DNA from: Crotophaga sulcirostris
Lineage: Eukaryota; Chordata; Aves; Cuculiformes; Crotophagidae
Assembly: GCA_013397455.1 (NCBI GenBank)
Contig: VYZB01000120.1
Location: 1,275,461 to 1,339,460, forward strand
Direction of reading: 5' to 3'
Length of the DNA: 64,000 bases
Shown here piece by piece: positions 1-31,608 of the stretch. The translations under genes were made by a program, and so were the position numbers. The number at the start of each line of letters is the position of its first letter. The first letter of the stretch is position 1. The notes beneath the pieces are model-generated. The model saw only the letters and a list, made by a program, of their open reading frames with translations, did not search any database and was not told the DNA's origin.

Positions 1-379
1 CCCCATCCCGCACCCCCGCCCCCCGCCATCCCGCAGCTGCTTTTTTTTCGCGGTGTTTTGCTGAGCGCCCGGCCCGGGCAACAAACACAAACGTTTCCCC
101 TTTTTTTTACCAGGGGTGGTGCGGAGGGGCCAAAATGCGGGGGGAGTGAGTGTTGCAGTGGGGTGTTCTGCTTCCTTTTTATTTTTTTTATTCCTGGAGC
201 CTTGGAGCGTCACCGTTGCCTTTTTTTTTTTTTTTCTGGAGGAAACGAACCCCGTGGTTTGGCCCCCAGAGCTCATTCTTCCCAGTTTTGACCTGAAAGC
301 CTGCCCGGTTTCTGCTCCCCGTACGTGACGCTCACCCTGCTTTTTTTTCAGCCAGGGCAGGCCTCCTCCCATGAGCCAG
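1..379. other. G+C-rich unassigned DNA at the window start
   Basis: The first 40 bases are almost pure C with CpGs, and the block stays G+C-rich to about 330. No gene is recognisable. Short open frames on the plus strand (58-291, 116-328) depend on overwritten T blocks at 41, 101, 221 and 341 and have no recognisable domain. T runs at 182-189 and 229-235 lie off the 60-base grid and may be real. This could be the start of a scaffold. Confidence 0.5.
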
Positions 380-740
380 GGTTGGCACCTTTCCCTAAAA
401 TTTTTTTTACATCCCCAGCTGGAAAGAGGGGGAACCTGCAATGGTTCCCCGTTTGCCATCAAACTGCACCTGTTCTCTGCCAGGTGAAGCTAAAGGTGGG
501 CTCCATTGGAGCTGTTGGGATTTTTTTTACTCTGGCTGTGAGTCCCGCACAGGAGCAAACATTGGTGTTTTCCCTAAATCTTTTTTTTATATCCCGAAAC
601 ACAGAGAGGTGGAAGCTCCAATTGGTTCCCAGTTTGCCATCAAACTGCATCTGTTCTCTGCCAGGTGAACCTAAAGGTGGGCATCAGCGGAGCTGTGTGG
701 GCATCGCCAACTCCACTGTGCGTCCCTTGGCAGCCCCTTT
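380..740. repeat. Degenerate two-copy tandem duplication, unit about 180 bp
   Basis: The segment around 393-530 recurs at about 572-720. The shared landmark CCCTAAA is at 393 and 572. GTTTGCCATCAAACTGCA is at 451 and 632. The phrase TGTTCTCTGCCAGGTGAA follows in both copies. The offset drifts from 179 to 181 bases, so there are small indels. The copies differ at several sites, so this is an old local duplication and not an assembly echo. The period is close to three rows of 60, so overwritten T blocks fall at equivalent places in both copies (401 and 581), which exaggerates their similarity there. No coding function is evident. Confidence 0.75.
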
Positions 741-741
741 C

Positions 742-1008
742 ACAGCATCAACAGGTTGGAAAGGACCTCTGAGATCATCGAGTCCAACCTATAACCCAAC
801 ACTAACACCAACCCATCATCTTTTTTTTGGCACTAAGGGCCTCATCCAATCTCCTCTCAAACACCTCCAGGGTTGGTGACTTTTTTTTCTCCCTGGGCAG
901 CGCATTCCAATGACCAATCACCCTTTCAGTGAAAAACTTTTTCCTAACATCAAGCCTAAACTTTCCCTGACGAAGCTTGAGTCCATGGCCTATAGTTCTT
1001 TTTTTTTT
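742..1008 (-). mobile_element. CR1 retrotransposon fragment (3' part), reverse orientation
   Basis: The plus strand reads as the reverse complement of a CR1 3' region: a GGTTGGAAAGGACCTCTGAG start, a GATCATCGAGTCCAACC block, then the CTCCCTGGGCAG and AAAACTTTTTCCTAACAT blocks that avian CR1 copies share. It is colinear with the copy at 28895-29100. It is 5'-truncated, like most CR1 insertions. Two overwritten T blocks (821-828, 881-888) lie inside, and comparison with the second copy shows which bases they hide. The far end runs into the T block at 1001, so the exact boundary is uncertain. Confidence 0.9.
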
Positions 1009-1058
1009 ACGATGTCAGCCCTACCCGGCTCGGTGGGCTGGAAGGGCCAAAGCTTCAC

Positions 1059-1200
1059 CTGACAAACCCCACAACTCGTTTCCAGGCAGCTCATGTGCTT
1101 GAGCGGGTTCTCCAGAAAGTCAGGCAACGAGGAGATGGTCAAGCACGGCCGGGAGCGAGGCCACGGCTGCCTCATCCTAAGTGGTCCTAAACTGCTGTAG
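1059..1200. other. CpG-retaining G+C-rich block, possible exon
   Basis: This 140-base stretch is G+C-rich and holds several CpGs in otherwise A+T-rich DNA. Two readings are open. On the plus strand a 45-codon frame (1063-1197, stop at 1198) has a strong bias to G or C at third positions and sits behind an acceptor-like TTTCCAG ending at 1085. On the minus strand 1176-1059 is open, is preceded by TTAG and is followed by a good donor-like CAG/GTGAAG. Neither short peptide is recognisable. It could be a small exon, a UTR piece or an unrecognised repeat; a coding role is only a guess. Confidence 0.25.
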
Positions 1201-4200
1201 CATCACATTGTAAGGGGGGAGAGGGATAAATCAGAAAGCATCTGCACTTCAATTTCTAACTAAATTCCTTTAGTCTATCCCTGAGGGTCTTCTGCAAGGA
1301 TCAGTAACTGAACTTTCAGATTTCTACTACCACAAAATGTGTTACCTTTTGAAAAAAAAGGTGAACTTTTCACCTTAGCCACCTCCTCTGGCATTCAGAG
1401 GCTGAAAAAAAGACATAAAGTTTTTTTTATTTTTTTTTCCTAAAATAATGAGCAAAAGTGGTGAATTAAGATTTTAAGGCTTTTTTTTAACCAGTTCTAA
1501 CCAGTCTGTTCAAGGCGACCCTGTGGCTAAAGGTGTTTGATTTTTTTTAGTGAGAAGTATGTTAATGTTCCTCTGCTTTGAAAGGGAAATACAATAAATG
1601 CAATAAATACAAAGCCCAGCCAGAGCCTGGCTGAGGATGCCGCCAGGTACAATAAGCACTCTTCCCCTAGATATGTAGGAGGAGAGAATGGTTTTGAAAA
1701 GGGGGGAAATATTATTATTATCATTATATATAATATAATAAATATATCATCATCATCACCATAAATCAGGTGTTGCTGCTCCAGCTTAACCCACAGCTGA
1801 AGACAGTAGTCCCCAGACAACCAGGAGGAGCAGCAGCAACATCTCTACCCATTCTTTCTCTCCATACATACAATTTTGGTCTTGGTGAACAGCAGTTCTG
1901 TGAAGGAAAATAAGTGAGACTGTGCAAAATATTTCCTGGTGCATTGTTTTTTAATCTTCATTAAATGAGAGAAGGTAGAACTGAAAAAGACTGTTAAATA
2001 TGCAAAAAGCCTGAACAGGATGTTCCATCAATAAGACTTTAGTACACAGCTGATATCATAAAATGCAGGATCTCCTGAGGCCTTCTATTAAGCACCTACT
2101 CACAAGGAAGCAGGATTAAATACATTTCAGGCCAAATCCAACATGTTTTTTTACATTGCTTTTGAGAACCTCAAGTGAAGTGCCTGTTCTCTTCAGGCAA
2201 TTTTTTTTGCCCGTTAACTCTTTTTTTTGTGTAACCCTTTCTTTCTGCAAATTAATCCAATTAAAATTTTTCTTCCTCTTGTGATTGTGGAGGACAACTA
2301 ATGTTATCCTGTTTACAACATTTTTTTTCGTATGAATGTAAATGTAATATGAGGTGTACGTCCCCTTCAGACCTCACTTTTTGATTCAGATCGTGATGTT
2401 TTCCCAAACTTTTATCATTCTTGTTGCTCTCCTCAGGACACTTGAATGTGATGTCCACAGTAGGACACTGCAAACCAGCCAAACCTCACCAGTAATGAAA
2501 TTTTTTTTATGATTAACAGTGTCTAACATGTATCTTATTTGTCAATAAACCCCTTAATTAGATTTGTTCTTGTTGCAATGGCAACTTCATATTGACTCAT
2601 TGAGTAGAGGGTCAGTGCCATTTTTTTTCTTTCTTCACCAGCTAATCCCTGCATGAATTTCATACCTCCCTGAGGGCTTACCCAGCCCTTGTCCTGATCT
2701 TGTTCGTTTTGGATACTCTCCACAATTGGAGAGCATTTTTTTTTTTTTATAATTTATCAATGTACATTCTGAAGTGGCTTATTGATACTAGAATATGGAT
2801 CATTAATTTTGCGTTTTTCTTTAAAAAATAATTTCTAAATCAGTTTAACGAGGCTTAGTCAATATTTTCCTACTTTGAAAGGTGCAACGTAGAAAACTGA
2901 TGAGAAAGTAAGACAAAGTTAAATACCATTAACTCTTTAATATATGCAGGACTGTTTAGCTTATCTGTGTTATTACTTTTTTTTTTTTGCGAGCCACAAA
3001 GAGTCCAGGTATCTTGCCAGTGAAACAAACTCTAAGAATAGGGCCATTCATTTTTTACAAAATGATAACATGATCAGAAACTTTCAGAAATTTCAGAAAA
3101 TAATTCAGAAATTTTGGGTACACTTAAAGCCAATTTGTCAAATCTTTTAATAGAGTGTGATTTTTTTTTCTTTTGGTCTCCACTCTGTGCTCCCGTGCTA
3201 CACCACCTGCACCTCAGAGGCTTGCCCTGAGGCCACCAGCCTGTCCCCTGCCTGGAGTCCAGGAGTGCCATATGACATACCTACTAACCCGCGGAAGGTG
3301 CCCGTAGCAGCAGCCATCCCCCACCCAGTGGTGCCCTCATGTGTCTCCACATGTGAATTTCAAATATTGGGATTCCAAAAATTTGTTCCATTTTTCACTT
3401 TTTTTTTTAAATCTGGCGTAACCCATCTGTATGCTGTGCAGCCCCTTTTTCTGGAATTACAAATCAGTTTGGAAGTTTCATACAAATGAAGATGCATGGA
3501 GTAAAATAACTTGAGACCATACTGGCATAAACTGTGCTTTTAACTGAGTTGCAGTATCTACCAAGAAAATCCAACAACTTGTCTTAAGGTCATGGCAAAC
3601 TCCTAAGCTCAGAAATGGATTCTCTTTACCCCTTCATTTTCCAGTAAGTGGAAATTTTGGAAAAGACCTTTTTTAGTATCTATGTATTTGCATACTGCAG
3701 CTGGGGAAAGTTGGCATGCTTTCACTGATGTTATGCCTGTCTACACAAGTTGAGATTAAATTGTTATTTCAAAGGCAGTCAAGTCAGTTCAGCCTTATCT
3801 AATTTTTTTAAAGAACAGAATTTTTTTTCTGAGTATGAAGTTTTCCCGTATGTGGGCACCTGTATGTACATACGGAGGCCATTAAGATTCATGGCCAGTG
3901 CTATAATTCATTCTTATCTTTCTCTTTTTTTTTTAAAATAGTAAAGAGAAAGCATGAAACTTAACCTACAAACTCATGCGAGTTAATTGAACAAATATTT
4001 AATGTTGGAGCCCTGAGTTTGTGCAATGCCATCATCCAAGGAAACCAAATCTGCAAACTGTTGCTTCCGCACAAGTTTTGCAATGCCTTTTTTCATGTAT
4101 GCAACATTGCGTTTGTTCATTTTTTTTTCAGGGCATCTGCCCAATCTGTTCAGGAAGTTTTTTTTGAAATAATATTTCAAATAACTTCACAATATGTTTA

Positions 4201-4205
4201 TTAAG
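1201..4205. other. A+T-rich unassigned DNA
   Basis: I see no gene, RNA or named repeat here. The stretch holds an ATT/ATC simple repeat at 1709-1760 and many overwritten T blocks. T runs at 1431-1438, 2221-2228 and 3925-3934 lie off the 60-base grid. Short open frames are at chance length and mostly cross T blocks. Confidence 0.6.
1709..1760. repeat. ATT/ATC simple-sequence tract
   Basis: The tract is a run of ATT units that passes through a TATA-like stretch and ends in CAT/CATC units. It is imperfect and A+T-only for most of its length, so it is a degenerate microsatellite. Confidence 0.75.
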
Positions 4206-5208
4206 AAGTTTTAAATTAAGGGAGGGTGGGTTTAGACAGGTTTTTTTTGAGAAATTTTTTACAATGAGGGTTGTGAAACACTGGAACAGGCTGCCAAGGG
4301 AAGCAGTGGAGGCCTCCTCCTGTAAAGGTCCCTTCCAACCCAAAGAATTCTATGATTCTATGATTCATAGACCTTGATTATTTCAGTACCTAAGGCCATA
4401 GTGGATCAATATATTGCAGATACCACGTACCATGTGCTATTAGATTTTCTCAAGACACAGCCGCAGAGAGCCAGCCCAATGACTTTGTTACTCATCTTCA
4501 GCAGTCACAGCAGAAGCTGTCTCATCCCACAGCAGATGTACTTTATGTGCAATAATCAAACAATAGCAGAAACTAAGGCTGACCACGAGCCTAGTAAGGG
4601 CTGGCTCATCCTTTAATCTGCAGTGGTGCCATGTCTCCAGATGATCCTAACAGAAAACCCGTGCCCAGTGCTCCAGTAGAAGATAGACTCCCCCTGACTT
4701 GGAAGCAAATCCTTTCCCATTTATAACTCTGTTGAACGCGGTGTGGAAAAGCTGTAACAGACAGATATCTAGGAAGGTTCTTCATACAACCTCAGAAAAC
4801 AAGTGCTTTCCAACCGACGTTCCAGCTTTAGGAGAGACTCCTTTCCAGCATGTTAGAGGGAGAAAACCCTCCACCCACAAAATACAGCTGGGCTATTGTG
4901 CTCAAGAGAGGAGCCTTTCCTTACTGTGACAGCCAACCAGCTGACATCCAGGCCTACAAGATTTTAATACGTTCATTGTCTTAATGAAGAGCTGCAAATG
5001 TAATGAACATGCTCAGGGCAGAACAGTGCTCATATCCTCCAGCAGGACTGCAAAGGACTTATTACCTTAGCTTAGGGGATAATGGTGTCAGTTTGCATGT
5101 TTTGGTATTATCTGAACGCGTGTTGGTTGTTGTGTAATTATACCATGTATTAGGTAACCATTAAACAGCATGGACCGAGGCAAATTGCCGATGCTTGTGT
5201 TTTTTTTT
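2201..5208. other. Overwritten T8 blocks, group 2
   Basis: Blocks start at 2201, 2321, 2501, 2621, 2741, 2981, 3161, 3401, 3821, 4121, 4241 and 5201, in the same phase of 60. Block 4241 lies inside a CR1 copy. Confidence 0.9.
4208..4371 (+). mobile_element. CR1 fragment with internal deletion
   Basis: This plus-strand CR1 3' end reads GGTGGGTTTAGACAGG, an overwritten T block (4241-4248), then CAATGAGGGTTGTG and CACTGGAACAGGCTGCC. It jumps early to GGTCCCTTCCAACCC and ends in the ATTCTATGATTCTATGATTC tail. The copy at 56776-57160 has more than 100 extra bases between the same two landmarks, so this copy carries an internal deletion. It is non-coding today. Confidence 0.9.
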
Positions 5209-5379
5209 CCTCACAGAGTTCTCAACAGGAAGAAATATGCAGTCGTATGACTGTCCACCCTGAAAGTAAGCTTAACTATAAGTGTGGAGAAGAATTCTGA
5301 GTAGGTTTTCACCCACTTAGTGAGTCCTCCACCTTCCCCAGCAACCATTTCTGTCAGTTAGGTTTGCTGCTAGCACGCC
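4372..5379. other. Unassigned DNA
   Basis: I see no gene or recognisable repeat. The ORF at 4699-4929 on the plus strand is of chance length and has no known motif. One overwritten T block lies at 5201. Confidence 0.55.
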
Positions 5380-6520
5380 ATCTCTCATTTCAAGTTTGGT
5401 TTTAGCCAACTTCAAATTTCCAGACACCAAATAACATTGTACCTTTGATGACCAGGCTGAAAAGCCAGCCATGAGCTCTCTCCTTTGCTTGTTGCTATAC
5501 CTAGCGGTCAGTCTAATTCTCTGCAGTCTTTGATAAACGACTCACACAGCATTCCCCAAGCCCCACATTGTAAAACTCTTTTATGACCCCAAGTCTCCTA
5601 CCCTGTAGATACGGTTAATGTTGTCAAATCCCATGTGTAATACATTGTATTTGGCCCTTTTAATTTACCTGTTTGTCTGATTGTGACTCTCAATGAGATG
5701 ATTCAGCCCCACTGGGAAAAGTAGTACATAAGTATCCAATATTTACTATCCTTTGCAGACTTTACCATAATATTTTATGTTGTCTAGATCACTGATAAAA
5801 GTATTAGGCAAAAAAAAAGTGTCTCTGGGAAAAAACCCTCGTCACAATAATTTTCTTTGTTTATGCCTTTTCATTAGCAGTGACATCTGGACATCAACAA
5901 GTGAGTCAGTTTTTAATCCATGTAATGTTAATTTCATGTAATGGAAGTTCTTTTAAATCACAGTGTTATTATGGTATTGACTAAAAAGCTTTGAAGAAAT
6001 CAATGGCTGTTATGTGAACACAGTCCTCTTTAGCACTCAGAATTACATACTTTTCAAAGCAAGCAAAGAGGCACAGACACCTCCCTCAGCAGAACAGCAG
6101 CAAGATCTACCTCCTGGGATGCTGTGTTGACTGATCTTAATTATATTTTAACCTCTAATTTTTGTTAATAGGATCCCAAATTAGCAATCTCTCTGCTATG
6201 GTTATGAATGACATCATTAGTTATTCAACAGGTCCTTTCAAGCTTTTCAAAACTGATGCAACTTTTACAATGCTCTTTTGGAATTACCCACCACCCAGGG
6301 AAATGCCTTATTAGCAGCTGAAGACAGGTACTCATCTAACTGTATTAGGACTGAAGCTTAACTGGAACAGATCCTGGCCTGCTTGCTTTCTTGCAGGTAT
6401 TATTTATTCTTTTTGTCTCTTTTTCATGTGGATCGATAATCCCTTTTCTCCAAATACTGACCAGAAATCTCTTGTATTTTTTACCTACCATACTTCACGT
6501 ATACTTGATGTAGGATTCTT
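5380..6520 (-). mobile_element. Ancient CR1/L3-like LINE remnant, reverse orientation
   Basis: Several phrases appear in the order expected of the reverse complement of an old amniote CR1/L3-type reverse-transcriptase region. They are a TTTGCAGACTTTACCATAA block near 5755, then a GATCACTGATAAAAGTATTA block near 5787, an AATCCATGTAATG block near 5916, a GCTTTGAAGAAATCAATGG block near 5990 and a TGTTGACTGATCTTAATTAT block near 6124. It is far more diverged than the ordinary CR1 copies here, so its boundaries are vague and no frame survives. The assignment rests on remembered family phrasing and no alignment was run. The region is nearly free of overwritten T blocks. Confidence 0.5.
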
Positions 6521-6580
6521 CCTTTCTTTTCCTCCTAATTCTTGTTAAAAGTGCCCTTTTACTGCATTTAATCCAGTTGC

Positions 6581-7908
6581 TTTTTTTTACTCCAGCAAGT
6601 AAGTTTTTTATCTTATTCCTTTTAATCTCTGTCATTAATGTCTTTGTTTCCCACCTGAACCTCTACAAACTGATTTCCCTTTTCTCATTTCCTCATTTCA
6701 TTTTTTTTTAACTAGAGTGGCTTTCTGCCCAGTAAAAGCTTTACATGCTAATGAAATCAAGGCTATCTACATATCCAACTGGCCATCGTTGAACAACTGG
6801 CAGTTTCTCTTAAAGCCTCCTACTTCAAAGTCGTGTTCTCTTCCCATTATGCTGACAATTAATCTAAGCTTTGGGTAATTAGCTCTTTTAGAGTTTCATA
6901 GATGAATATTGGTGGATTACGTGTTTACACAAATGGAGTGTAATCAGATTCTAATCAGAAATACATAAACAGTAGAGTAATTTTTAGAGTGACAACTATT
7001 CTTTGTCAAGGAGCAGGGCATACAGTTTTAAGAGGTTTTAAGAAGAAAACAACCCTTCTTTTTTTTTTTCACTTTTTTTTTTTCCATACAAACTATCCAG
7101 CAAATGTTCTCTGGGTTGAATTTTTTTTTGGTATGTATTTTCCATCTCGAAGTTTTCGATGTAGTTCATAAGATTTAGCATTTTTTTTTTTGTCATTAGG
7201 TAAGATCTGAATGTTTTGACAACTCATATATAGGATAATATTTTTTTTATAGTTTACCCTGTAGTTTTTTAAGGCTAGAAGAGGCTACAGCAATAATCAA
7301 TTTTTTTTTGAATCAAACCAGTACCTACATCCAGGCCATATCCCCTGAAACTCATAGTATTGAGAGGTCAGATGTTACTCCTACTTCCACAACATTGTCT
7401 CAATCAGGGCAGAATTTAACGCTGCAGATGTTCATCTGCTAGGGAAGCTGTATTTTTTAAATCATATTCTTTTTGGTTTTACACAAAGCTACATTATATA
7501 TCTGTTTCTATACATGCTTTTTAAAATATTTGTTTTGTACTTTTTTTTAAACAAACTGCAAAACTCTGTCAAAAGGTAGCACACATTTTTTAACTTTTAT
7601 TTTTTTTTTACTGGAGAAGTTTTCTTGGACTCAATAGTAAGGTTGCTAAAGTTCATACTTTATGGTTTCACCTGCATCTATTTAATAATTTACAGGGTGG
7701 GAATTGCATCACTGAATTCTATTTCAACAATGCACTTAACTTTAAGCATTTGTTTAAGTTCATCGCTATTTGTCAGGCCACTTAAGTATGCCTTGAAGTT
7801 CCAGTGGAGCCTTGGTATGTTTAAATGGTTTGCTGAATAATTTTTTTTGTAAATACATGTGGTTTTTTTCTGAAACAGAGACTTATTCTGCATTTTAATA
7901 TTTTTTTT
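6581..7908. other. Overwritten T8 blocks, group 3
   Basis: Blocks start at 6581, 6701, 7061, 7121, 7181, 7241, 7301, 7541, 7601, 7841 and 7901. Five consecutive rows are hit from 7061 to 7301. Confidence 0.9.
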
Positions 7909-8440
7909 CAGTGTTTCTCCTACCAAATGTCTAAGAATGATAGCTGTTTAAGGACTTTGATTTTAAAATTACCTAGGAAAAATATGCAAATTTTTCTTTA
8001 TGATTTATCATTTGAAATACAGAACAAAGCATTGAAATATCCAGTGGCTTATAAATTATAGTAAATTTTTTAAATGTGCAAATGACTCTTATAGGGATAC
8101 ACTGAATGAATACTTAACGGATCCCTAAAGCTACTGGCACAACTTCACAGAAGTTATGGCAGAGTTTTATACCTATGCAGCACTGCTGCGAATGGATAAT
8201 GTTTAAATAATTCATTTTCTTCTACACGCAATGCACTGGCAAGCATAGGTGCCCTACCTTAGCCTCTGTTATGGTGTGAAAAAACAGCTGAGAGTTTCTG
8301 GAAGCACAAAGGTGCAAAAGTAACATAATGTAGAGTGCAATCATGTAAATTCTGACATGAAAAATGAGCATTGAAAGCAAGAGACAGCTAATCCATTTCA
8401 GTTTTTAAAAAATCCCTTTAAATAAAAAAAAAATCAAAAA

Positions 8441-9888
8441 TTTTTTTTAAGGTACAGTATAATTGTCCCAACTGCAGTGAAGTAGGTTCCCAATCAGGTG
8501 TTTTTTTTTGCCCCAGTTCCAGTTGTGCCGTCTGAGTGTTGTATCAACACACACTTGTGCTTTTTTTTAGCAAAGTCTCAGAGGGACCAGCCAGGAAGTG
8601 CAGAAGAGACGATCGAGTTGTGTGACCCTGGCAGAACATGGAACTGGAACTGAGCAACTGATTAGAGCAGAACAAGAAAGAGTTTTATTGCCAAATCAAT
8701 AAAGAGAGCAATATAAAGTGAAGTTGCATATTGGAAAGTGTTTTTTTTTTTCACATCTACATAATTCACCACTAATGTATGATTCATGTAAATGCTTTAT
8801 CGTGGATAAATCCAGCACTGCACTGGAAAGGAGCAAAGCATCTGTAGATTAACTAATAGGGTATCTGGCACTGAAGAGGGAAATCTTTTACTCAATTTTA
8901 CATATTATACTGAAGTTACATATGGAATAAAACTTTCATTTGGCAGCATCCGATTTCTAATTGTGATTTAGCTAGTCTGGACCAAATTTACAGCATGTAA
9001 GGTACAATTGTGTCTTAACTATGTTGAACTTATGCCTTTACACTTAAATGGCTGTCTACACTGTTTTACAAATATGAAGAGGCACTCATGTTGGGTACAG
9101 TCCCTGTGATTTTGTCTTTTCTCTCCTACGGTTTATTGAATGCCCATTTATTTTTTAAACTTTTTTTTTCAAAAGGATATAGCAGTTCTGCCTAAATTCT
9201 TCTTTGTTTTAAAAACTTCAATAGAGCTTAATCTGGGGAAAAGAAAACTTTAAAAAATGAAGCCATGAAACCTGTTTTGCTTTTTTTTCTTATGGAAATA
9301 TGGTAGTTCACCAGTGGAAGTTCAACTGTGGTTTACGCTAGAAAAAGCTATGTTAGATGGTATATACATGCATAATATAAATTATTCTTGTGGATAAAAC
9401 TTTTTTTTTTAAAAGCATGAATATCTTACAGTAACACATCTTAAAGGAATTGGGTAGGGTTTTTTTTTTGTAAGAATATTTCTGTTTCTTTTCAATAGAT
9501 TTTAAACTGGGTTGTGAAAACCAGCTGCAGCTAAAAATTGTAACCATATGAATTCCTAGGTAATAACAACGGTCAGCAGGATTTAGCCATTCTTATTCTG
9601 TTATTTTACCTTCCACTATCTACTTTTAAATGTACCATTGTTTTTTTTCTTGAGTTCTCCGCAAAGCAGATTCAATTCAGCAGCACTAGAATACAAAGTA
9701 TGAGTGGCACCATAATGAGTCAGGCAGTACAGATATGAAATCACTGGATAACAGAAAATGTTTTTTTTGTATAAACTAAGAGAGTTGTTGCTGTTCCTTT
9801 TACCAATCTTTCTAATAAATTTTTTTTTCCAGAAGATTACACACAGTAATTAACACAGTGGAAACCTCAGGTTTGGGCTTTTTTTTTT
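8441..9888. other. Overwritten T8 blocks, group 4
   Basis: Blocks start at 8441, 8501, 8561, 8741, 9161, 9281, 9401, 9461, 9641, 9761, 9821 and 9881, in the same phase. Confidence 0.9.
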
Positions 9889-10240
9889 CGTTGCCAAAAG
9901 CAAAAAAGATCTGGGAGACTGATTCAATCTTTTCCACACACAAGTAAAACTACCAAAGTCTTTTTAAATACTCAGTAACATCACTTTGCTTCATGATCAA
10001 TACTCTATAGCAATTTTCCGCTTCAAAGTGCAACGTAAGTGCCATGAATTCAGTATAATGTTAGAATAAAGTTTAATAGGCTACAAATTATATTCATTTA
10101 AAAGAAGGCTACCAAGTCAGAAATTACATTAAAGTAAGTCTTATTTGTGTTATTGATTAGAACTATCTACATTTTCTTTGAAGGTTCAGTGCTATGCCTA
10201 TCTAGATGGTTCCTGCCTTTTTTAACACAAGACTAACATC

Positions 10241-13200
10241 TTTTTTTTACCAGCTTATTTCTTCTACTCTTTCTCTGCCTCAGCCATGAAAGGGTTTGTA
10301 TACTTCACACCAACACCGTAGTAAAAACAAGACCCTGTACCTTTAAAGAGGCAAAGGCTCATGCCTTAATAACCTGTACAAACCTTAATCCTTCGTATTG
10401 AATATATATTAACAAATTGTCACAACAGCCTTCTTTTCCCCTTTTTCTGTTTTAATTAAGGGTGTATCTCTCTATACTAGAGGATTTTCTTATTGGCTGT
10501 CATTGCACCTGCAATAAATACAGTTAAGGTTAGTGGTAAATATTACTGTGTTCAAACTGCATCTTATGTATAGGTTTCCTGAGATGGTGTCTCATATGTC
10601 AGGGAGAAAAGGCAGCAATGGCACATCTCCCCTTAGGACAAGACACAAAGGCTGCCTGGATCACGGCCAAGCAGCTTTGGCGCACGTACCACAGGTATTT
10701 ATTCTCAGTGCATCAAGCTGTTTTTTTTCGAGAGGAGCCTAAGCAAAAGGACGACTTTATTTATAGGCTCTGCAACAAAGCTAACAAGCAATATACTAAT
10801 CCAGAGCCAGAAAGCATAGATAAAATGATGTTTTTGAGAATTTTTTTTTTCTCCAGGGGAAAGATGAATGTGGGAGACCGAGGCTCTGGGAAAAAAAAAA
10901 TTTTTTTTTTTCTCCAGATCCCAAAACATTCTGGCTGTGCTTTCTTAATGATGTAAACTGTTTTTTTTGCCTTTCTGTATCCAAAGAGGGCCACCACACT
11001 AACACGTATGTGAAATTACATGAGACAAAATGTAAGTTGTTTGCTAAAGAAAACAATTTCTAAGCAGTACTTTACTCCATTTGCTAATAATTTTCAACTT
11101 GCTTTCAGAAGGCTCTTTACTCTTCCCTGTTATGATCACCATGACAATGGGAGGTTGTCCCATGAGGTACAGAACTATCTGATTCCCATCAAAGGGGATG
11201 AATACTAAGAAATTCCACACGTACCCATGAAAGGGACTAAGGCCTAGTGCTCAAAAGCACGCACTCATTTTCTCTTTCAAATCACATGCCACTGCTTTAC
11301 TGTATTTTATAAAAACATTGCACACCCACCATATGGAATTAAAATAGCATCTGGAAATTCTCTCAGAATTTCAAGTTCCATGTAATCCTCAGCCATGTCT
11401 TTCCTATTCATACGTATACCTTGATAGCTTCCGAATTATTGTATTATTTTATGTCCCTTTTTATGCAAAGCAATATGTAGAAGATTGTCAGTCGCATTTC
11501 TTTTTTTTATTTAAATTGCCACCCTGATAGCCTTATTAATAGCATTGAAAGTAGCTCTGTGTTTCTACTCTTGCAGATAACGCTGAAGACCCTTCTTCCA
11601 GAAGAGCCTTAAACACTTGGTTTTTTTTCAGAGTCTGATTAATATTCTCGATCCTTTATAAGGATCGTTTCTGGACAAACTTTTTTTTAGACTTCTACAA
11701 CCATTTCAGTTTCCCAAAGAGACACATAAATGAAGCCTGATGTACAAGTTCTTATTTCTTATCAGATAGATCCAGAAAGAAACAACAGAGAAAGGAATAG
11801 GTTTGGACATATCATTTTATTATGCTGGAATTCCTTACAAGAGGAACTGCGGTACCATAATCTTTTTCAAATTGTCTTCTGCAGCATGTGAAATGGCAAT
11901 GAGCAGTGACTGATACTACATTTGCATTATTTACAACTCTTTAAAAGGCAGATTTAAATTATTCTTTTAGTTACTATGGTAATCTAGGAGACCTTTGCAG
12001 CCTTCAGCTTTTCTGAGTAAGGATTGAACTGTTGCTTCAAAGCACTTCCAATATTGCTACAGAAGATTATTTACGATGCTCTTTTTTTTTTTTTAATCTT
12101 TCCCTTTTATATTCCTTTTGGCTGGTAACACATTAGATTGCTGTCATCTGGAGTGGTGACTTCAATATAATAATTCTGGCATCAGATCTGTAGACAGCAT
12201 GGGTTAAAGATGCTCAGACTCTTATCCTCATGTGTAATGATGGAAACCTAGATTTGCCCAATGTCAGATCATAAAGGTACTCCTGATTAATAAAATATGA
12301 GGTAAAAATTTATTTCATTATAATGTTACATAGATTTTTCATTTTTTTAATGTCTTCATTGAAGGATTTATGTTGGAGATTTAAGTTACCCTTACAGATG
12401 CTCTTCTTCTGTTGAGACTTAAGAGAATTATTTCTAACTACTACCTCTGAACTTCACTGAATAGGACTTCGCATTGGTAAACTGCTTTAAAATATAACTC
12501 TGTTGCACAATTTTAGTGCAACCTGGATGCAAATAAACAGATTCTTTTTTTTTTAAAGAATTACATATCTATGAAAGATGATGAAGTGGAAGAGCCCTGA
12601 GATCTTATCTCACAGGGATGATGCAATGATGAAATGTGGTTTTTTTTTCAGTCATTACTGACCTGGATTTTATTTGGGTCACAGATCAAAGGATTAGCTT
12701 TTTTTTTTATTTATAGTTTACTTTTTCTTGTTTGAAGGTCAGTGGATATAATTCATATTCTTTTTTTTCTGATTAGAAATTATAATTTCAATTAAAATAT
12801 ATATTTTTACATTTTCTTCTTTTTTTTTATGTAGTCTTTGCATTCAGATCATTTTCTTTGTCCAATCTCCTGCATACACTGCATGGAAAAATTCACAAAA
12901 ATATAACAACTTATAAGTTTGTGTAAACAATTACATTGCGGTGGTAGCCACCATCTCAGAAATTCCAAGAACTTGACTTGTTTCTCTGGCATTTAAAACC
13001 ACTATCTGTGCAACATTCCAATGTAAGTAAAATTCATATTGTTAGAATTCATGCTTCTTTCCAGAGGAAGCCATTGAAATAATACATTTCATTTTTTCCA
13101 GTTCATTATAACCCATTCTTCAATTCCAATCTACTTTTACATGCCCTTTCAAGAGAAAGTATATAGAATGACACTGGGTTTAAGTTACATGACTTGTGTG

Positions 13201-14499: not shown

Positions 14500-14527
14500 T
14501 CATATCATATAAATCATATCATATAAA
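14500..14527. repeat. Perfect two-copy 14-bp tandem repeat
   Basis: The unit TCATATCATATAAA occurs twice back to back (14500-14513 and 14514-14527). It is a small A+T-rich tandem with no evident function. Confidence 0.85.
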
Positions 14528-15367: not shown

Positions 15368-15935
15368 ATATCATAGAGTCATAGAATCATAGAATGGTTT
15401 GGGCTGGAAGTGAGCTTAAAGATCATCTAGTTCCAACCCCCCCCTGCCATGGGCTCTGACTTTTTTTTCTAGATCAGATTGCACATAGACTCATGCAACC
15501 TGGCCTTGAACACCACCAGGGATGGGGCATCCACACCCTCTCTGGGCAACCTGTGCCAGTGCCTCACCACTCTCACAGGAAAAAATTTCTTCCTAACATG
15601 TAATCTAAATCTCCCCTCTTTCATCTTAAAACCGACACACCTCATCCTATCACTGCACTGCCTGATAAAAAGCCCCTCCCCAGTTTTCCTGTAGGCCCCC
15701 TTTCAGTACTGAAAGGCTTCTATAAGGTCTCTCCAGAGCCTTCTCTTCTTTAGGCTAAAGAAGCCAAACTCTCTCAGCCTCTCCTTGTATGGGAGGTGCT
15801 ACAACCCTCTGATTGTTTTCATGGCCCTCCTCTGGACTTGCTCTAACAGCTATGTCCTTCACATGCTGAGGACTCCAGAACTGAATGCAATACTCCAGGT
15901 GAGGTCTCACCTCATTATATGGCTCAGGTCTTTTT
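15368..15935 (-). mobile_element. CR1 retrotransposon, about 570 bp of the 3' part, reverse orientation
   Basis: It begins with the inverted tail ATAGAGTCATAGAATCATAG and GGTTTGGGCTGGAAG. It continues through CCTGCCATGGGC, CAACCTGGCCTTGAACACC, CACCAGGGATGGGGCATCC, CTCTGGGCAACCTGTGCCAG, AATTTCTTCCTAACATG and CTCTCAGCCTCTCC, and ends near the ATACTCCAGGTGAGGTCTC block. It is one of the two longest CR1 copies in the window. The T block at 15461-15468 replaces eight bases whose identity the copy at 47262 predicts. 5' truncation is normal for CR1. Confidence 0.93.
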
Positions 15936-21184: not shown

Positions 21185-21510
21185 AACAGAACACAGCACA
21201 AAACAGGTTGTGGGTATTGAGAGGAAGGCAGCAAGAATGATTAGGAGTATAGAAAAAAAACATGCATGAATAGATTGAAATTTTTTTTATTGTTCATTTC
21301 ACAAAGCAGACATTTAAAAGAGAACATGATAATAGTATTTAAAGTAAGAAATGGTACAGGCAAGGTAGATAAAAAGCTTTGTTGAGACAGGTTTGTTCCC
21401 TGGCTCAACACAGACTAGGGAGGCATTCAGTGAAATTGCAAGGTAGCAAATTAAAAAGCTGATAAAAGATAGCATTTTTTAGCGCAATATGTAATTAGAA
21501 GTCGTGGTGC
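21185..21510 (+). mobile_element. Ancient CR1/L3-like LINE remnant (ORF2 C-terminal and 3' region)
   Basis: The order of phrases matches the sense strand of old amniote CR1/L3-type elements. AGGCAGCAAGAATGATTAG is followed by GAACATGATAATAGTATTTA, then ACACAGACTAGGGAGGCATT, TGAAATTGCAAGGTAGCA and TTTTTTAGCGCAATATGTAA. It is strongly diverged and has no tandem tail, unlike the young CR1 copies. One overwritten T block (21281-21288) falls inside. The family name is from memory of the consensus style, not an alignment. Confidence 0.58.
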
Positions 21511-22319
21511 TGATGCAAGGGGTGGGGTGTATGGAGTAATTTGCGGTTACTTACCTCTCAGTGAAAGAATACGTTACTTATTTTTTTTAGCATGCAGGAT
21601 GAGGTAAAAATCATGAAGTGAGGCAGTTACAACTGATTGCCACCAGCTGCTGACTTACAGTGGCTTGCTCTCCACCCTGACTTGTAACCATCCACCTCTT
21701 GTCTTGCTGAAGGATTCGTAATTTGACAAAACAGCAAGATTCCCGTCTTCTGATTAATGCGTCAGGTGTCTATTCAAAGGAAGTCAAATACATTCATTTT
21801 ATGAGATTAAGTGTATGCAAGCGTAAAATTGTGTAGAAAGGGATTTCCTAAAACAGAATGATCTATAAAGGGTCTTTCACAACATACGCAAGACATACAT
21901 CACCACAGAAAATATCTGTTCTGTTTCAGAAGAGATAAACTGTCATGTCTAAAGATTTGGGCCAATTTGATGCACCTTACTCTCAGTATGGAGCTGAGGT
22001 GACAGCTTCTGTTTTCCCACTGTTGGGCAAGCAGCGTAGACCAATACATGAAATCATCAAAATAAATCACTTTGGAAACAAGATCTAAAGCTGTATTTGT
22101 CAGAATTAAATAAAAAATCTGCACATAAAACACTTCATGGGGAAAAAAAGCGCAACATTTCAAAGCAGACTGTTGACAAGTGACATTATCCTGTCACCTA
22201 CTAAAGACTAATGACTTGCAGAACACAACAATGCTGGATGCAGCTATATTTCACTGGTGGGATTTTGGCTCCCCCAGTCTCTTGCTATCAAAACGTGTCC
22301 ATGAGACTGTGACAGAGTC
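21511..22319. other. Unassigned DNA
   Basis: I see nothing recognisable. One overwritten T block lies at 21581. The minus-strand frame at 21900-22163 has no known motif. Confidence 0.5.
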
Positions 22320-22740
22320 ACCACACCAGACATTCCTTAAGGAAGGTTTTGCCACACATGAGAGTACACTGGTCCCCAACCTGTGTCAGGTCGCCCTTTC
22401 CACCACCAAACATCACACCAAGAGGGCCACTGATCCCTGAGACACTCCCGTCTGGGGATGATCAGGAGGAGGGAAGGAAGGGGCAGTCTATGGTGATACT
22501 GTGGTGGGGGTCTCCTTCCCCTCATGGTGGGCAGTTGGCCCCAGTGGGGAGGCTGGTGCACAACATGGCTCCTTGCCAAGGAGCACCGGACTGGCTGGTG
22601 GACCTCTGCTACCCTGGGGTGCCACAGGCTGTGTGGGAGGGTACCACATAGGCTGCACTTGGGGTCAAGCCATGAGGGCATGAAGGTGCAGGTTTCCTTG
22701 CCAACGAGCATGATCTCTGCTCCCTGATACAGTCTTTGAG
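22320..22740. other. G+C-rich block of unknown nature
   Basis: This block is clearly richer in G and C than its surroundings, with runs such as GGGAAGGAAGGGGC and CCTCATGGTGGGCAG. Open frames on both strands (plus 22349-22651, minus 22337-22804) follow from the low stop-codon density of G+C-rich sequence and show no domain I recognise. It may be a decayed repeat, an LTR-like piece or a local regulatory island. It holds no overwritten T block. Confidence 0.4.
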
Positions 22741-23024
22741 GCTCAGTGTTGAAGAATTCTGCAGAACGCATCAGGAAAATGACACTGAGGTGTGCAGTTT
22801 TCAAGTGAAAGATGTATTGTGCCCAACCACCCTAAATAAAAATGTAACACTTGTATTCATGGTACAGGTGGAGAAGAGAATGCCACATGATACAGTTGGG
22901 GTTCAACATAAAATCATGGGGTGGTTTTAATTCATTTTCTTGGAGCTGACAACCCCTTTGAAAGAAAGGAAAACTGAGTAGTTACTATAATTTTAGTCAC
23001 AAATTTACTACTTTTGTTCGTTGT

Positions 23025-23041
23025 TTGGTTGGTTGGTTGGT
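23025..23041. repeat. GGTT microsatellite
   Basis: The tract has four GGTT-type units in a row, flanked by T/G-rich DNA. It is short and imperfect at the edges. Confidence 0.8.
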
Positions 23042-24940
23042 TTGTTTTAAGAGGAAGCAGGGACTCAGAGAAGCAGTAGCTTTTTTTTGGTTTTCTCCCA
23101 TTTTAAGGTCCTTCACTGTCCTGTCAGCTCTGCCCGTATGTTCTCTAAAACTATTTTCCTCTTTAGTGAGCTGGCTCTACCAGGCCAGCCATGCTGCTCC
23201 CACTCAGTCGCCTGCACTGATCCATCCTTCAGCCATGAAAGTCACTCTTCCCCCTGCCTGATCCAAAAATCAATTATGGCAGCACATAGTTTGCATTATT
23301 TTGGAATTACTGCTATCTCTTTTTTTTTCATAGCCTTACATAGACCATTCAACTCTTCTTTTCCTTAGTCAAATTTTTCACCTCTAATAATGTTTGGATT
23401 TTATTCTGTTGTGTTATTCTATGTTTGGTGATTTGGCTTAGGAAGAAGGACAGTTACGCAGTCTAGTTATGGTCATATTTTTGCCTTCCTATGATATGAT
23501 TTTCAATACATATTTTCTGGTTTTCCCCTTCCATACCATTCATGAAGGATACAGCAGTTCTGTGGAAATTTGTGTATGTGATATGCAAGGTGATCCCACA
23601 CTCTTGTAAGTATCTAAGCATCTTCATTTTTATCAGGTCTTCAACAGGGCTGAAAACACTTGAGATTATGTGCTTGGTTATTAGCATAGTCACAGCCAGA
23701 TTATATTACTTTAATTTGGTAGCAGTTTGTTGACACTCTGTGAGAACATAAGCAGGAGACAAGACAAGCATTTAGCAAAGTCCCTGCAATTGGATACAGA
23801 TTTTTTTTACTGTCCATAGAAGGTTAGGACCTATTTGTCAAAGAGCTCACCAAATCATTTTTTTTTTTCAAGGTCAAAAACCCTAGGAAATGAACCAGAA
23901 AACAATCTAAATTGACAAGGACATTTTTCTACAGGGATCTAGGGAGCTGTTTGCGCAGAACAAGCATCTGCCTGGAAGGCTACAGAAGATTGTGCAAGAG
24001 TATGTCCTGGGGTTTTTTTTCATGGCAAAGCTTTGCCAAACTAGGTACCTGTATAGTCCTTATAGTGTTTCGAGAATGACAAACCCTTCTAAATTATCCT
24101 TTGTCTTGACTGTTAAAATTTTCTTTAATCTCTGAACGACGTTTTGACAAAATGATCTTGTATTCACAGATTACTAGGGGAAAAGTTATACCCAGATTTC
24201 CAGTATTTTTGGTACACAGGGTAATGGTAATAGAAGAATTGCAGAATTGGCACCCCAAAGTTCTCAAACCTCAAATTTGAGGGGAAATACCCAGACAGGA
24301 GAAGAGACAGCTCGCTTGGTACTGATGGTGCCTGTGCCAAGTTGTCTCAAGTTCGTGGAAATGTCGGCAGTCGTACTGAACAGTACCTCTATATTTACTG
24401 GGTGAAGAGACAAGAGGGAGGACAAAATAGTAGTAAATCCAAATAACCTATTTGTAAATGTAGAGTTCATCACATTCACTTTTTAACAGCTTTTGTTAAA
24501 TAGTATTAGCTACACAAAAGTGCTCAGAATTGATGTTATTCTGGGCATGTTTTTCTCTGAGGAAAGCTGAAGACCATTTTGGCTCCTAACCTCAGTGCAT
24601 GTCCTGTCACTGTTGTGAAGGAGAGTTACAATAAGTCAGTGAAGTCAAGCAGAAAATACTGGGCATAAGTGTGAAAGATAAAAAGAAATCCAGTGTTTCT
24701 CCACATAGCTAAAATGAACCAACACTGTTCGCTAGTTGAAAAAAAGCTGCTTGTTATGTCAGCAGAAGCACAAGGCTTGAAGTTTACCAAGAGAACCAAA
24801 GCAGAGACAAATGTTAAGCTGCCTAAATTTTTAATGTCAACACAACTTACATTCAATAATCGAGTATGAGACTGACCTAATGAGACAGGCGATAACCATA
24901 TTTCAAGTTCAGTGGTTCTCAATAACAGCGCTGGAAGAAT

Positions 24941-25788
24941 TTTTTTTTGGTTGGAGACAACAAGGCTATTTTTAGAAGCGCTAATATTAGGGAAGTGATT
25001 AGAAATAAAGATGGTTTTCTCATGTAATAAGTATCTTTCTCAACCAACAGTGTAATTCCCTTTTTTTTGAGACAATACTGTGCACCAGAAGTTGGGACCA
25101 AAAGGTCATATAGGATCACATTTTTTTTAAGCAAGAAGCAAAAAATCTGCTTTCCTGCTTGAGGAAAGAGAACAAGGGATTTTTTTTTTGAGATTTTCTA
25201 TAGTGTAATTAGGAATAAACTGTCTGGTCCTTTGGTCAGGGAAAATAAAGGGAGCCCAAGAAGTAGGCTAGAAAACTTAAGATAGGACATACGAAGGAGA
25301 AGACTCTGACTGGCAGTTAATGAAGGGTAAGGCAGGAGACTTCACTGGGGCCATAGCCAGTTTTTTTTTAGAGGCTGTAGAAAGTTCTTGACCTAGAGCC
25401 TCGACTTAAAATTAATCTGAAGGATACAGCTGTGGCTAGTGGCATAACACGGTGAAGTTCCGCACACATGATTGAGACTCTTTTTTTTAGACCACTTTTT
25501 GTGGAAAGAAAACTCTGACTGTGAGTTTTATTTGGAGGAGAGTGAACCCAGAAAAATATTTTCACTTGAGCCTCAAAAATAAATATTGTTTCTGTGTGAC
25601 TTTTTTTTCTAAACCTTAAGTGGATGTATGGAGGGTTTGGTTTCACTGAAGACATAAAATTTTTTTTTTGCAACGATCAATATTTTTGAAGAGAAATTAA
25701 AACTATCTAGATGTGTCTGGCATCCTTGGTTTATTGAACTTAAGATGAGGTTTAAATTAATCTATCAATATTTTGTGATCTTTTTTTT
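24941..25788. other. Overwritten T8 blocks, group 8
   Basis: Blocks start at 24941, 25061, 25121, 25181, 25361, 25481, 25601, 25661 and 25781: nine hits in fifteen rows. Confidence 0.9.
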
Positions 25789-27760
25789 ACAACTATGAAA
25801 CCCTTACATGCATTCATCAGTGGAAACATTAATAGTGACTAGTACTGATAAAAATTGGGTACTGTAATGGGACTATATGTAACAAATAAATTCTCTTGAT
25901 CCAAATGAATGTGAAATATTGCTGGGTTTTTAGTAATACCCTGTGGGATGTAGAAGAGCATTCCTGCTGGTATGCTATACTGTTCTGTGATCAATAAAAG
26001 CTGAGAACATGAGACTGGATAAATAAAACTGTCCATATAATTCATGTATTCTCTTCTCTTACATTGCTCCTATGTACCTCTGAACTTCTGTGCTCCCACT
26101 GCAGTGCCGTAACTGTTTCACAATTTTATCATTTCCTATTTTGTTCTGCCTTCTCCCTTGTCGTTTTGTAGTGTGTGAGGGACAGAGGAGAAGGGAAATA
26201 ATGTTGTGGTTTTGTCAAATGGCTACAACTGGCGGAAAAAAACCCAAACCCACTAACCAAAACAAATATACTAGCTCTTATCAGTGACCCATTGCAAGAG
26301 CAATAGGATGGGAAGGAGACCTTGAGCTACTAACAAAGTGGTGTTCTCTACGTACACTTATTCTAGCTGTGTCAGCTCATCAAAATCCAAAGCACTTTTA
26401 ACACAAAATCCTATGTCTGCTAAAACCTCATACTATGCAAAATGACATTTGCCAGCCAAAATATTCATGTGCCTTCCCTTTTTCCTTGGTTTTCCACTGA
26501 CACTCTTTTGCCAGTCACGTTTTCTCATCTGTGTGCTAATGTGTGAGTGATTTAGTGTTCCCCCACTACGTGGCATGTCTACTCCAGAAAATGATGTCCT
26601 TTGGTGACATTTTACTTTTGGGCCTTCAAACAACAGAGTCTGGTGAAAATGTGCAAAGTGTCAGATCGGTGTCATCTCCAAGACAGCTCATTTTCAGTGC
26701 CCATTTAACCAGGTGGAAATGGCCATGCTTTAATGGAGATGAAATGGTCAAGTTCAATTAGATCACTGGTTCTCACGAATGTAATAGCCCCTCCATGTTC
26801 AGCATTTATTTCAACACATTTAGTAAATCTCATTGCCTATAAATTAATCCAGTTCTCAGTGTAAGTTGTACTGTGATACTGATTAGCATAATTGTGACCC
26901 ACTGGGGAGCAATGATAGCTGATGACTGCATATAGTCTGCAGTAGCTTTGTAGGAAGGAATACGTTGAAGGTGTTCAATCAGCTGGAGTAAACAGGCTGG
27001 TAACCCTGGAGGAAGCAACAGATTTTCCAAACTTCACTACTGAAGATCCTTACCATTTAAAAAATATCCTAGAACAAATACATGACTTAAACTCCATGCA
27101 AAGCAATTAGTTCAAAAACTCGCTTACATATCTCTAAATAAGTATATATCCTGCATTTAACATTTACTGACCTCTGAAGTAAAGACCAATGAAGAGCTTA
27201 AAATACAGTTAATTTGCTGTTGCAGTAGTTTGTCAATTCCTGGTACAAGTTCTTCAAAGGTGGAACAGCTATATTTAAAGTAATTTGAAAAGATTCATGA
27301 TTGCTAGGAGTGTTCTGGAAGCCCTGGGCATGGTGAAAGCTAAAATGTTGCCTTCTTAGTTTTATACAGTGAAAGACAACTGAATTCAATCCTTCCTTAT
27401 GTAGGTATTTATTTTTATAATTATGGTATCACAGAAATAGATTTGGGAGGGGGAGAGAGCTGCTATTTTGAAAAGATTTATATCTCTGGCAAACTGAGAG
27501 CAAGGGTAGGGAAACAAGGAAGTTTCTGTCAGTGGGATTTCAGACTGTTAGGACTCACTGAATGGATGGCAAAAAAACATAACTGGAGAAGATGGAAAAT
27601 ATTTAAGTATTGTACATTGGTCAGTACGTTACATAGTTCCTTTACCCAATGCTCCATGGAATTAAAAACAACAAACATTGTTTGGGTTTTGCTTCTGAAC
27701 CACTGTGTTCACTGAGCACAAATGGTGAGCCACTTTTTAGAGACAGGGCATACATAGCTG

Positions 27761-30700
27761 TTTTTTTTGTGTGTACACAAGTACACAAACAATCCCTATC
27801 TCCTCCTCCACAGGCACGTTCACTCCAGATTTTTCTGTTCTGCTGAATGTGCAATGTGGTAGTTGCTGTACAAGAGCTAATTTTTTTTAAGTTTTGAATT
27901 CGATAGTGCCAGACCAGATAATAATTCGCTCCAGTGCAGAGTCAAAATACGTTTCTGAGTCACTTACTATATGGAATGGGTGAAGGAAGCTTCATTCTTC
28001 CCTCTGTTTGAAGACTCAGCTTTGGTGTATTGAAAGAGAGCGGAAGTTTGTCCTGTATCTCCTGCAAATTCTAGTTTAATGTCTAAATCAAGTCCTGCAT
28101 ATGCCAAACTCCAAAAAGTTCACACCAACTCATTGAAGTCATCTAAATGAGGTACTTTCAGTGAAAGCTTAGTCACCCATTTTTTTTTTGGGGAAAGTGG
28201 AGAGAGACAGCCCTCTAGAGGTGTCTATTTTTACCCTGTTGAGATGAATTCCCTTCTGGAGATAGCACTGTAGGAAACGTTAAGGATCTGCATTCTCATT
28301 CAAGTATTTCTGTTAAGTAGCTAAAGTGAGAGAGGATGAATTTTTCCCAGAGCTCTCAAACACAAATTCCCTCCCTGGGATTTCTCTTATCCACATCTTT
28401 GAACTGTTGCTTCAAGGTGTCTTCAGTCACTTTAAGGTTTCTTACAGAATTTATTGCAGGCAGAAGACTTACACACACCTTTCCCAGCATCCCATCATCA
28501 TCTGCAACTTCAGGACTCCTGAAGTGAACATAATGAGGAAGCCTTTGGGTCCAGGTCAGAGTGACGTGTGAACAAAGGTGCTGTTAAGCAACCAGCAAGA
28601 CTCATTATAGGTTTTGCAGGGCAAGGGGTGGGCAGCAGTGATATTAAAACGTATGTTGTTCTGGAATGCTTTTGTGTAGTCCTTATTCTCTGTGATCAGA
28701 TCCTCGAAGGCTCCCAGCTTATATTTCAGTGTCTGAACTTCTACCAAAACCCAATTGTCCTATGGACACTAAGTTCAAGGTTTTTTTTAGCTTCTGATCT
28801 GTTTATGAAAGGTCTTGTTTACAGGCATGTAAATAACGCATTTTTTTTTTATTTAATAAGGAGGATAAATTTTAGTTCTGTTTCCTGTATCACAGTATCA
28901 TTTTTTTTCAGTATCACAGTATTACAGTATCACAAGGTTGGAAGGGACCTCTGAGATCATTTTTTTTTACCTATAAGCCAACACTAACACCATCCCATCA
29001 TCTAAACCATGGCACTCAGTTTTTTTTTCAGTCTTTCTTTAAACACATCCAGGGTCGACGACTCCACCACCTCCCTGGGCTTTTTTTTCCAGTGGCAATA
29101 CTGTATTAACAGTAAACAGCTGCTGTTTGGTATTCCTTGTGCAAATGGTGAATCCCACAGGGCAAGACAAATAATACAAGGCAGATTAAATTAAGTTGAA
29201 TTTTTTTTTGCACTGTTGGAGCAGTACAAGATGGTAAGAGTGCGATTCAGGTCCACAAAAAGACTGAAAGAGAGGAATGATAATACTTGTAAATCACACT
29301 TCAAAAACAGAGTAAGTTTTTTCCTTCTGCATCAACCTGACTTGAAAGTTCAAATTACTTTTAATGAAAGTTGGGCTGCATAAAGAGTCTTGAAAAATGT
29401 AACCTGTACTCTTAAGGCTTTGATAAAGAAATAAAAGCCTTAAAAAATGTACAAGCATAAAACATTGTCAGACAGTCGCTTAATCTAGTATGGAAATAAT
29501 GATTTGGAGTATCACCATAGCCTGACTATACAAAAGTGCTTGCTTTAATGCCGAGTACTGTAGAAGAATGCTGGGGACTGATGCAGTTCTGACTTTAGTC
29601 CAGGAAAAACATTCCACTGTCTTCAGCGAAAGCTGAACTGAGGCCTTGATTCTGAGATAAGAGGGTGGTCTTTCTCACCCAAGGTAAAAATGCAGTCTGA
29701 GTTGTAGTCAACTTGACTTTATTTTTTCTTTTTGTGGTTTTTCACTTTGTAGATGCCCTTCCAGACTTTTATCTATTCTACGAGTCCCACGAGACAAGAA
29801 CATTCACACTAATTTCATGGAATGGACTGAGAAGTTTCAGAAGGCTCTCTGAGAAGCACTTTATGCCTCTGGCTAAAATCTGAAGTACAAATCTACAAGA
29901 GAATAGGGAATTAAGGTAAGAAAAAGAAAAAGTGAAGAATGATACAAGAGAAAAGCATAGCAACAGCAACAAAAACACATTTACCTCTGAAGCCATGGGC
30001 TATTACATTTTATTCTCTGTAGAGAGAAGAAAGAATTAGATTTTTTTTTAGGTGCCTTCAACTGAAAAGTATGGAAGTAAGGGACTGGAAAGAGATATTG
30101 ATAGCTCTTAATAATCACTTTTCTAGAAAGGCAACAGGAAGTTCATCCTATAATGAACAGAAAACTGCTTGCCCAAAGTCACCATCTTTTTAAGAGGAAC
30201 CTCATTACTTTTTTTTTTCATTTTTTTTAGAAATCCCATATATACAAAGCTTAAACAAACAACAACAATAAAGGATAATATTTTTTTTGTTTTTTATCTA
30301 TCCACTTATTTCTGAAGGTCTCCATCGCAGCAACATCTAATTTTTTTTGGGTCCCAGCCAGACTTTCAAAACATCCATGGAACCTGCTAGTGTTTCTCTT
30401 TTTTTTTTGTAATAGATATTATCATTTCCTATCACAAATTGTTTCAGTCTGGAATTTGACTTTTTTTTCATGCATTTTTATCACTTTGCACTGGTATATA
30501 TGCGCTGTATTAGTTTTTAGTTTTTTTTGTGAAAGGAAAAGTAGTTAGATAAAAATGAATGGTGTTTATTTTTCTTTGATTTTTTTTTACAGCAAATAGT
30601 GTGAATTTGGGTAGACAAAGAAGCCTGTGATTCCATTTTGGGTGAGATTAACTGCTAAGTAACACTAAAGCTTACACAATAGTCTAGAAAACTGCTATCA

Positions 30701-31608
30701 GACTAAAAGGATAATAAAATGTTTTGGACAGAAATCCAAACAATGGTGAACAATGAATATCTAGCGATCTATAATTCTGACAAAGGTTTTTCTTTGAGGC
30801 TACGTGTTAGAATTACATGCACATACACATGTTCAAAATACTGCAGTACTCAGCATGATTTATGTACTTGATAAAATGCCTCAGAGTAGCACAAAAATAG
30901 AATTGCACCAGGTGCACAACAAACAGACATACTACTTTTAAAAAACTCAAGTAAGCCAACTGGAGTGGGAGCCAATGAGAGCAGATGACATACATATTTA
31001 TTTTGAAAGCAACCAGAATGCCTCAACCTTCTTCAGTCACAACTATCTAAACTAAGTAATGGTAGTGCCAGATTCAGCTAGTTCTGGTTATGGCTCTGTT
31101 ATCAGGTGAGAGTAATTCTTTTACTCAGGCCAGCTTTCTCATTTCTCATGGCTGTCATTGTTTGCCTTCTTTGTCCATGGTTAGATAAACATGGGGTTTC
31201 CTAAAGCCACAACATAAGTTCATGTAACTGTATGTCCAAATTTTTTTTCAGAGAAGTCTGCAAATCCTGCTCCAGTAGCCCCAGGCTCCAAGGACACAAG
31301 AAAATAAGCAAGTGACACAAAGAAGAGAGTTGATACAAAGTCCAAGGAAAGGGTACATGGTTTTTTTTGAGGAGCTGAAGGACAAATATGACTCCTCCGG
31401 CCAGCATAGTGGCATTTTGAAAGAGGTAGACTGCAATTCTGAATTAAAACTGGACATTCCTTCTCAATAATTTTCCCTGAGCAAAGAAAAATATCTTTGA
31501 ATATTGGGATTTGGATTGTAGATTATAATGTGGATGTTCATTTTTTTTATGGTAAGATTGAAGAATTTTAATTCGTCAGAAGGAAGTAAATTTACAGAAC
31601 TTTTTTTT
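27761..31608. other. Overwritten T8 blocks, group 9
   Basis: Blocks start at 27761, 27881, 28181, 28781, 28841, 28901, 28961, 29021, 29081, 29201, 30041, 30221, 30281, 30341, 30401, 30461, 30521, 30581, 31241, 31361, 31541 and 31601. This is the densest group and it ends at the N gap. Blocks 28961, 29021 and 29081 are shown by comparison with 742-1008 to be in-place replacements. Confidence 0.92.
28895..29100 (-). mobile_element. CR1 fragment (3' part), reverse orientation
   Basis: It starts with several TATCACAG units, a variant of the CR1 tail, then AAGGTTGGAAGGGACCTC, an ACACTAACACCATCCCATC block, CATCCAGGGTCGACGACTCC and CACCTCCCTGGGC, and stops near 29100. It is colinear with 742-1008 and has four overwritten T blocks (28901, 28961, 29021, 29081). 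The two copies repair each other and show that each block hides exactly eight bases. Confidence 0.9.

Follow-up and report, generated by a model that had tools for sequence, protein, structure and literature searches.

Sixty characters per line is the width of FASTA and GenBank flat files. The corruption of a line-wrapped file or buffer has several traits in common with the pattern that we describe here: a pitch of 60, a fixed field of eight characters, a total length that does not change, and a drop in density at a gap. The titles and the first parts of the abstracts listed by our literature searches hold no mention of such an artefact.

In other public sequence, A tracts that lie exactly 60 bases apart, at the same pitch as the T blocks of the window (the whole stretch of DNA analysed, 64000 bases long), are found in a contig of Mucilaginibacter psychrotolerans (locus L042) and in the chromosome of Candidatus Bostrichicola ureolyticus (locus L039). 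These are true 60-base tandem repeats, with about seven units at L042:1198-1565 and about four units at L039:1285-1473, and each unit contains an A8 or A9 tract. In both cases the whole 60-base unit recurs, over a few units, whereas the window repeats only the eight bases, in rows that otherwise differ.

The pattern T8-N52-T8-N52-T8, which is matched 23 times in the window (some matches overlap) and 0 times in 100 shuffles of it, has exact matches in at least 118 stretches of the genome_contigs collection and in 7 of the viral_contigs collection, neither of which covers birds or other vertebrates. In these 125 loci, the T runs of 8-20 bases were counted by phase on both strands, runs longer than 20 being dropped; it is important to note that the pattern itself forces three runs in phase. 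Five loci (L039, L042, L069, L113 and L114) were inspected and the remaining ones were judged by their counts alone. The largest shares of runs on one phase among all locus-strands are 7/8 for L042 and 4/5 for L113, whose four tracts lie within 190 bases, and then come values of at most 3/5; in L039, 5 of the 12 runs are on one phase. Regarding the 12 highest in-phase counts, 11 belong to loci of 8-23% GC, with 31-64 runs distributed over many phases, and the twelfth belongs to L042. Among the 125 loci matched by the pattern, no grid comparable to that of the window was seen.

Phase and extent of the T8 blocks

The window contains a single gap of 25 N, at 31620-31644. When rows of 60 bases are counted from its first base, columns 41-48 are occupied by T8 (TTTTTTTT) on the forward strand in 114 of the 527 rows that precede the gap, about one row in five. 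The grid extends over positions 41..31608: the first block is at 41-48, and the last one, at 31601-31608, belongs to a T run (31601-31611) and is 11 bases ahead of the gap. This recount agrees with the original prediction, which gave 114 blocks in about 527 rows and mentioned about a dozen T runs off this phase; we count 127 pre-gap runs of at least eight T, 114 of which cover columns 41-48, while 13 are off phase. Tabulated modulo 60, as the original prediction had proposed, the phases in this window are concentrated at one value. Random phases would put 4.0 of the 127 runs in phase, and the Poisson probability of the observed count is about 5e-120.

The phase modulo the line width is constant for these 114 of the 127 pre-gap runs, and it does not drift across indels and insertions. 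The grid had been said to run without drift over 31 kb and across CR1 insertions, and indeed we find that the phase is held where interspersed repeats, the longest of about 370 bases, intervene.

The blocks are all-or-none. Over the 527 rows, the field of eight columns holds eight T in 114 rows, seven T in 1 row and six T in 4 rows. Before the gap, column 40 is a T in 31/114 affected rows versus 129/413 other rows, and column 49 is a T in 28/114 affected rows versus 115/413 other rows. The frequency of T on either side of the block is therefore that of the background, which shows that the block consists of eight bases with sharp edges and that the longer runs are made of a block and of T that were already there. 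Runs of at least eight A number 10 before the gap, which is close to the 13 off-phase T runs; the latter thus look like natural background, and the excess concerns only one phase and one strand.

No 60-base repeat underlies the grid. Tandem Repeats Finder detects 6 arrays in the window, none of which has a period of 60. When the blocks are masked, lags 40-80 have a mean identity of 0.2668 (sd 0.0026) and lag 60 has 0.2652. Lag 60 is thus at background level, which means that nothing besides T8 recurs every 60 bases. On the basis of the array search and of the lag identity, a tandem repeat of period 60 is rejected, since its units would not be alike outside the T tract. A search for other k-mers locked to the grid, with the blocks masked, gave a best phase-corrected p of 0.002 among 865 5-mers and 2509 6-mers and of 0.16 among 223 8-mers, about what is expected for that many tests. 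Natural poly-T tracts or transposon tails are also rejected: they are expected to be of variable length, on any phase and on both strands, and what is seen is a length of 8, a single phase and no excess of A runs of eight or more.

Replacement of bases inside interspersed repeats

The window contains interspersed repeats that are about 65-84% alike, at 15381-15747 and 56792-57156 (on opposite strands), 742-986, 28924-29080, 55667-55870, 47265-47384, 42522-42601 and 4249-4298. From the look of these repeats and from the original prediction, we take them to be CR1-like and the DNA to be vertebrate-like.

Some of the copies served as internal controls for an overwrite. We masked every in-phase block, 118 in all (114 on the left of the gap and 4 on its right), and aligned it, together with flanks of some 120 bases, to the remainder of the masked window at an E-value threshold of 1e-3. 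For six of the 118 blocks (those starting at 821, 881, 4241, 15461, 28961 and 29021), an alignment to another copy spans the block, and the other 112 blocks have no such alignment. The six blocks give 11 alignments, which are not independent, as a single pair of copies accounts for 4 of them. Opposite T8 there are exactly eight ordinary bases of the other copy in 10 of the 11, and six bases in the remaining one. An insertion would leave no base opposite the block; that eight are seen shows that T8 stands in place of other bases and adds none. The insertion of T8 is therefore rejected, as the other copies hold bases opposite the block in 11 of the 11 alignments. The idea, put forward in the original prediction, that an eight-character field was overwritten in a file with 60 characters per line is supported by the replacement of eight bases in 10 of the 11 alignments, over six blocks.

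The clearest case is the pair of CR1-like copies at 742-898 and 28924-29080, whose alignment is free of gaps and amounts to reciprocal proof of an overwrite. The blocks of the first copy (821 and 881) and those of the second (28961 and 29021) fall at four different positions of the repeat, and each copy has ordinary bases under the T8 of the other. Opposite the block at 821-828, the copy 28924-29080 has eight ordinary bases, in register. The block at 881-888, in the same repeat, faces eight ordinary bases in three copies (28945-29080, 55700-55856 and 15490-15617). In the second copy, the block at 28961-28968 is in a run that starts with a T at 28960 and faces eight ordinary bases of copy 742-898, and the block at 29021-29028, in a run that starts with a T at 29020, faces eight ordinary bases in two other copies.

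The two remaining blocks lie in other stretches of repeat. The one at 15461-15468 faces eight ordinary bases in two other copies, one of which aligns with a 3-base gap about 20 bases upstream. The block at 4241-4248 provides the exception mentioned above: six bases are opposite to it in 56912-57003, and eight in another copy.

Two other repeated regions contain blocks. The segments 390-519 and 569-701 are duplicates (83% identical, with an offset of about 180 bases) and carry T8 at the matching place, at 401 and 581; since an offset of 180 equals 3 x 60, these segments do not discriminate between the possibilities, and either T8 could be natural. A 16-base tandem repeat found by Tandem Repeats Finder at 28887-28934 also holds a T8 block, which is half a period long, so that replacement and insertion are not separable there.

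Regarding coding sequence, the window has 59 open frames of at least 90 amino acids, of which 7, after trimming, were compared with Pfam (5 of these 7 lie after the gap), and none of the 7 has a match; the frames that were searched thus provide no exon usable as a second test of the overwrite. There is no Rfam match at the gathering score in the window.

Affected rows and the boundary at the gap

The affected rows are clumped. In the 526 whole pre-gap rows, 113 of which are affected, there are 44 adjacent affected pairs, against 24.0 +/- 3.9 in 20000 shuffles, and the correlation extends over about three rows. One run comprises 7 affected rows, for which the shuffles give 0.01.

The features of the rows yield nothing firm, and there is no clear sequence trigger. 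Affected rows are like the others in GC, A and T content, longest homopolymer and CpG (p from 0.225 to 0.886); their trinucleotide variety is marginally lower (31.2 versus 31.9, p 0.048 among 6 features). Rows that belong to repeats according to self-comparison are affected in 7/16 cases, versus 106/510 for the others (Fisher p 0.056). A trigger was sought in 172 columns around the block, and of the 8 most different columns, 6 belong to the T8 fields of adjacent rows, which the clumping predicts; the other 2 have p values of 0.004 and 0.006, as expected from 172 tests. Regarding a periodicity of the affected row numbers, the best p is 0.011 among 128 moduli.

The density of blocks falls from 114 in 527 rows before the gap to 4 in 539 rows with a full field after it. 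If the rate of affected rows is allowed to change once, the likelihood peaks at the gap, for a change between row indices 526 and 527; this improves on no change by about 72 log units, and indices 527 to 535 are within 2 log units.

Beyond the gap, 4 of the 15 runs of at least eight T are in phase, compared to 0.73 expected (P 0.007), an observation which is absent from the original prediction. The block at 41801-41808 is inside a T16 run (41794-41809) and is probably a natural T tract. Those at 45221-45228 (part of a T9 at 45220-45228), 46961-46968 (part of a T9 at 46961-46969) and 53201-53208 (a T8) may be there by chance or may be a rare continuation of the grid. If the four runs are part of the artefact, then the grid is in the coordinates of the scaffold, not in those of the contig, and something else must account for the abrupt fall in density. 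As regards a boundary of the underlying record, the change point adjoins the gap, yet there are four in-phase runs beyond it; on the left, the record ends beyond the window.

Origin of the grid and its consequences

The T8 blocks are almost certainly a data-processing artefact, the overwrite of one field of eight characters in lines of 60 characters, and not biology. A fixed pitch of 60 bases, held over 31.6 kb without drift and with no 60-base repeat beneath it, is a property of a line-wrapped record. We suggest that a program that held the sequence as lines of 60 characters overwrote, at a fixed offset, a field of eight characters, which would be one 64-bit word. About a fifth of the lines would have been hit, the field would have come out as T, and the length would have stayed the same. 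The error would have arisen at a time when the piece that precedes the gap formed a contig record by itself, and characters that were blanked or could not be read may have been given T as a default base. Clumped rows without a clear trigger are more readily explained by an intermittent error of memory or buffer than by a base-dependent rule. If the first base of the window starts a line, the offset of 40 would be a multiple of 8. The step at which the error occurred may be the assembler, later file handling, or something after the archive.

One candidate for this step is a software fault, so far undescribed, which, as the assembly is made, would silently overwrite a single 8-byte field in each 60-character line of selected contigs; we consider the case for and against it to be evenly balanced.

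A masking step that acts line by line, in which eight characters at a fixed column are set to N or to a placeholder and later become T in a step that knows only four bases, would lead to the same eight-base replacement at a fixed column, and some two-bit codings do store N as T. However, the 25 N of the gap survive as N, which shows that no general N-to-T step ran on the final record, and such a rule would not obviously give clumped affected rows; we therefore consider this explanation rather unlikely. The original prediction had left the choice between an overwrite and a per-line masking later turned into T: the replacement that both imply is borne out, and the window alone cannot separate the two.

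Slightly less probable still is a change that arose later than the public archive, when the window was handled, be it accidental or planted as a control. Phase 41 is a 0-based offset of 40, which is a multiple of 20 (a chance of 3 in 60) and of 8, as would be seen in a grid anchored at the first base of the window or at round window starts, although this is arithmetic and not a test. Against this explanation, the second half of the window is nearly clean, with the switch at a contig gap, and the 125 pattern-matched loci of the two other collections show no comparable grid.

Last, real T tracts (a tandem repeat, the poly-T tails of transposons, or phased T tracts) do have natural counterparts among the 13 off-phase T runs and the 10 A runs found before the gap, and 390-519 and 569-701 share a T8, which cannot discriminate. 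Against such tracts, there is no period-60 array and no identity at lag 60, the length is fixed at 8 with background flanks, eight bases are replaced inside repeats at unrelated repeat positions, and the phase does not drift across the longest interspersed repeats. The probability of this explanation is negligible, and we judge that the two CR1-like copies, each with ordinary bases under the blocks of the other, already refute it.

The grid is an artefact, of interest only for data quality. That it affects every other reading upstream of 31620, as had been claimed, was an overstatement: the blocks amount to 912 of 31619 bases, and the rows contain no other phase-locked anomaly. With as many as 912 false positions over 31.6 kb, the T-A skew nevertheless goes from -0.016 to +0.031, and false T8 could disrupt exons and primers and mislead motif searches and estimates of repeat age. 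If the fault did occur during assembly, a public vertebrate assembly would contain affected contigs with roughly 2-3% of their bases false, and the fault would be detectable, from the phase of homopolymers modulo the line width, in other scaffolds or in assemblies made with the same program. This test is cheap, and it could be run on whole archives to find other damaged contigs.
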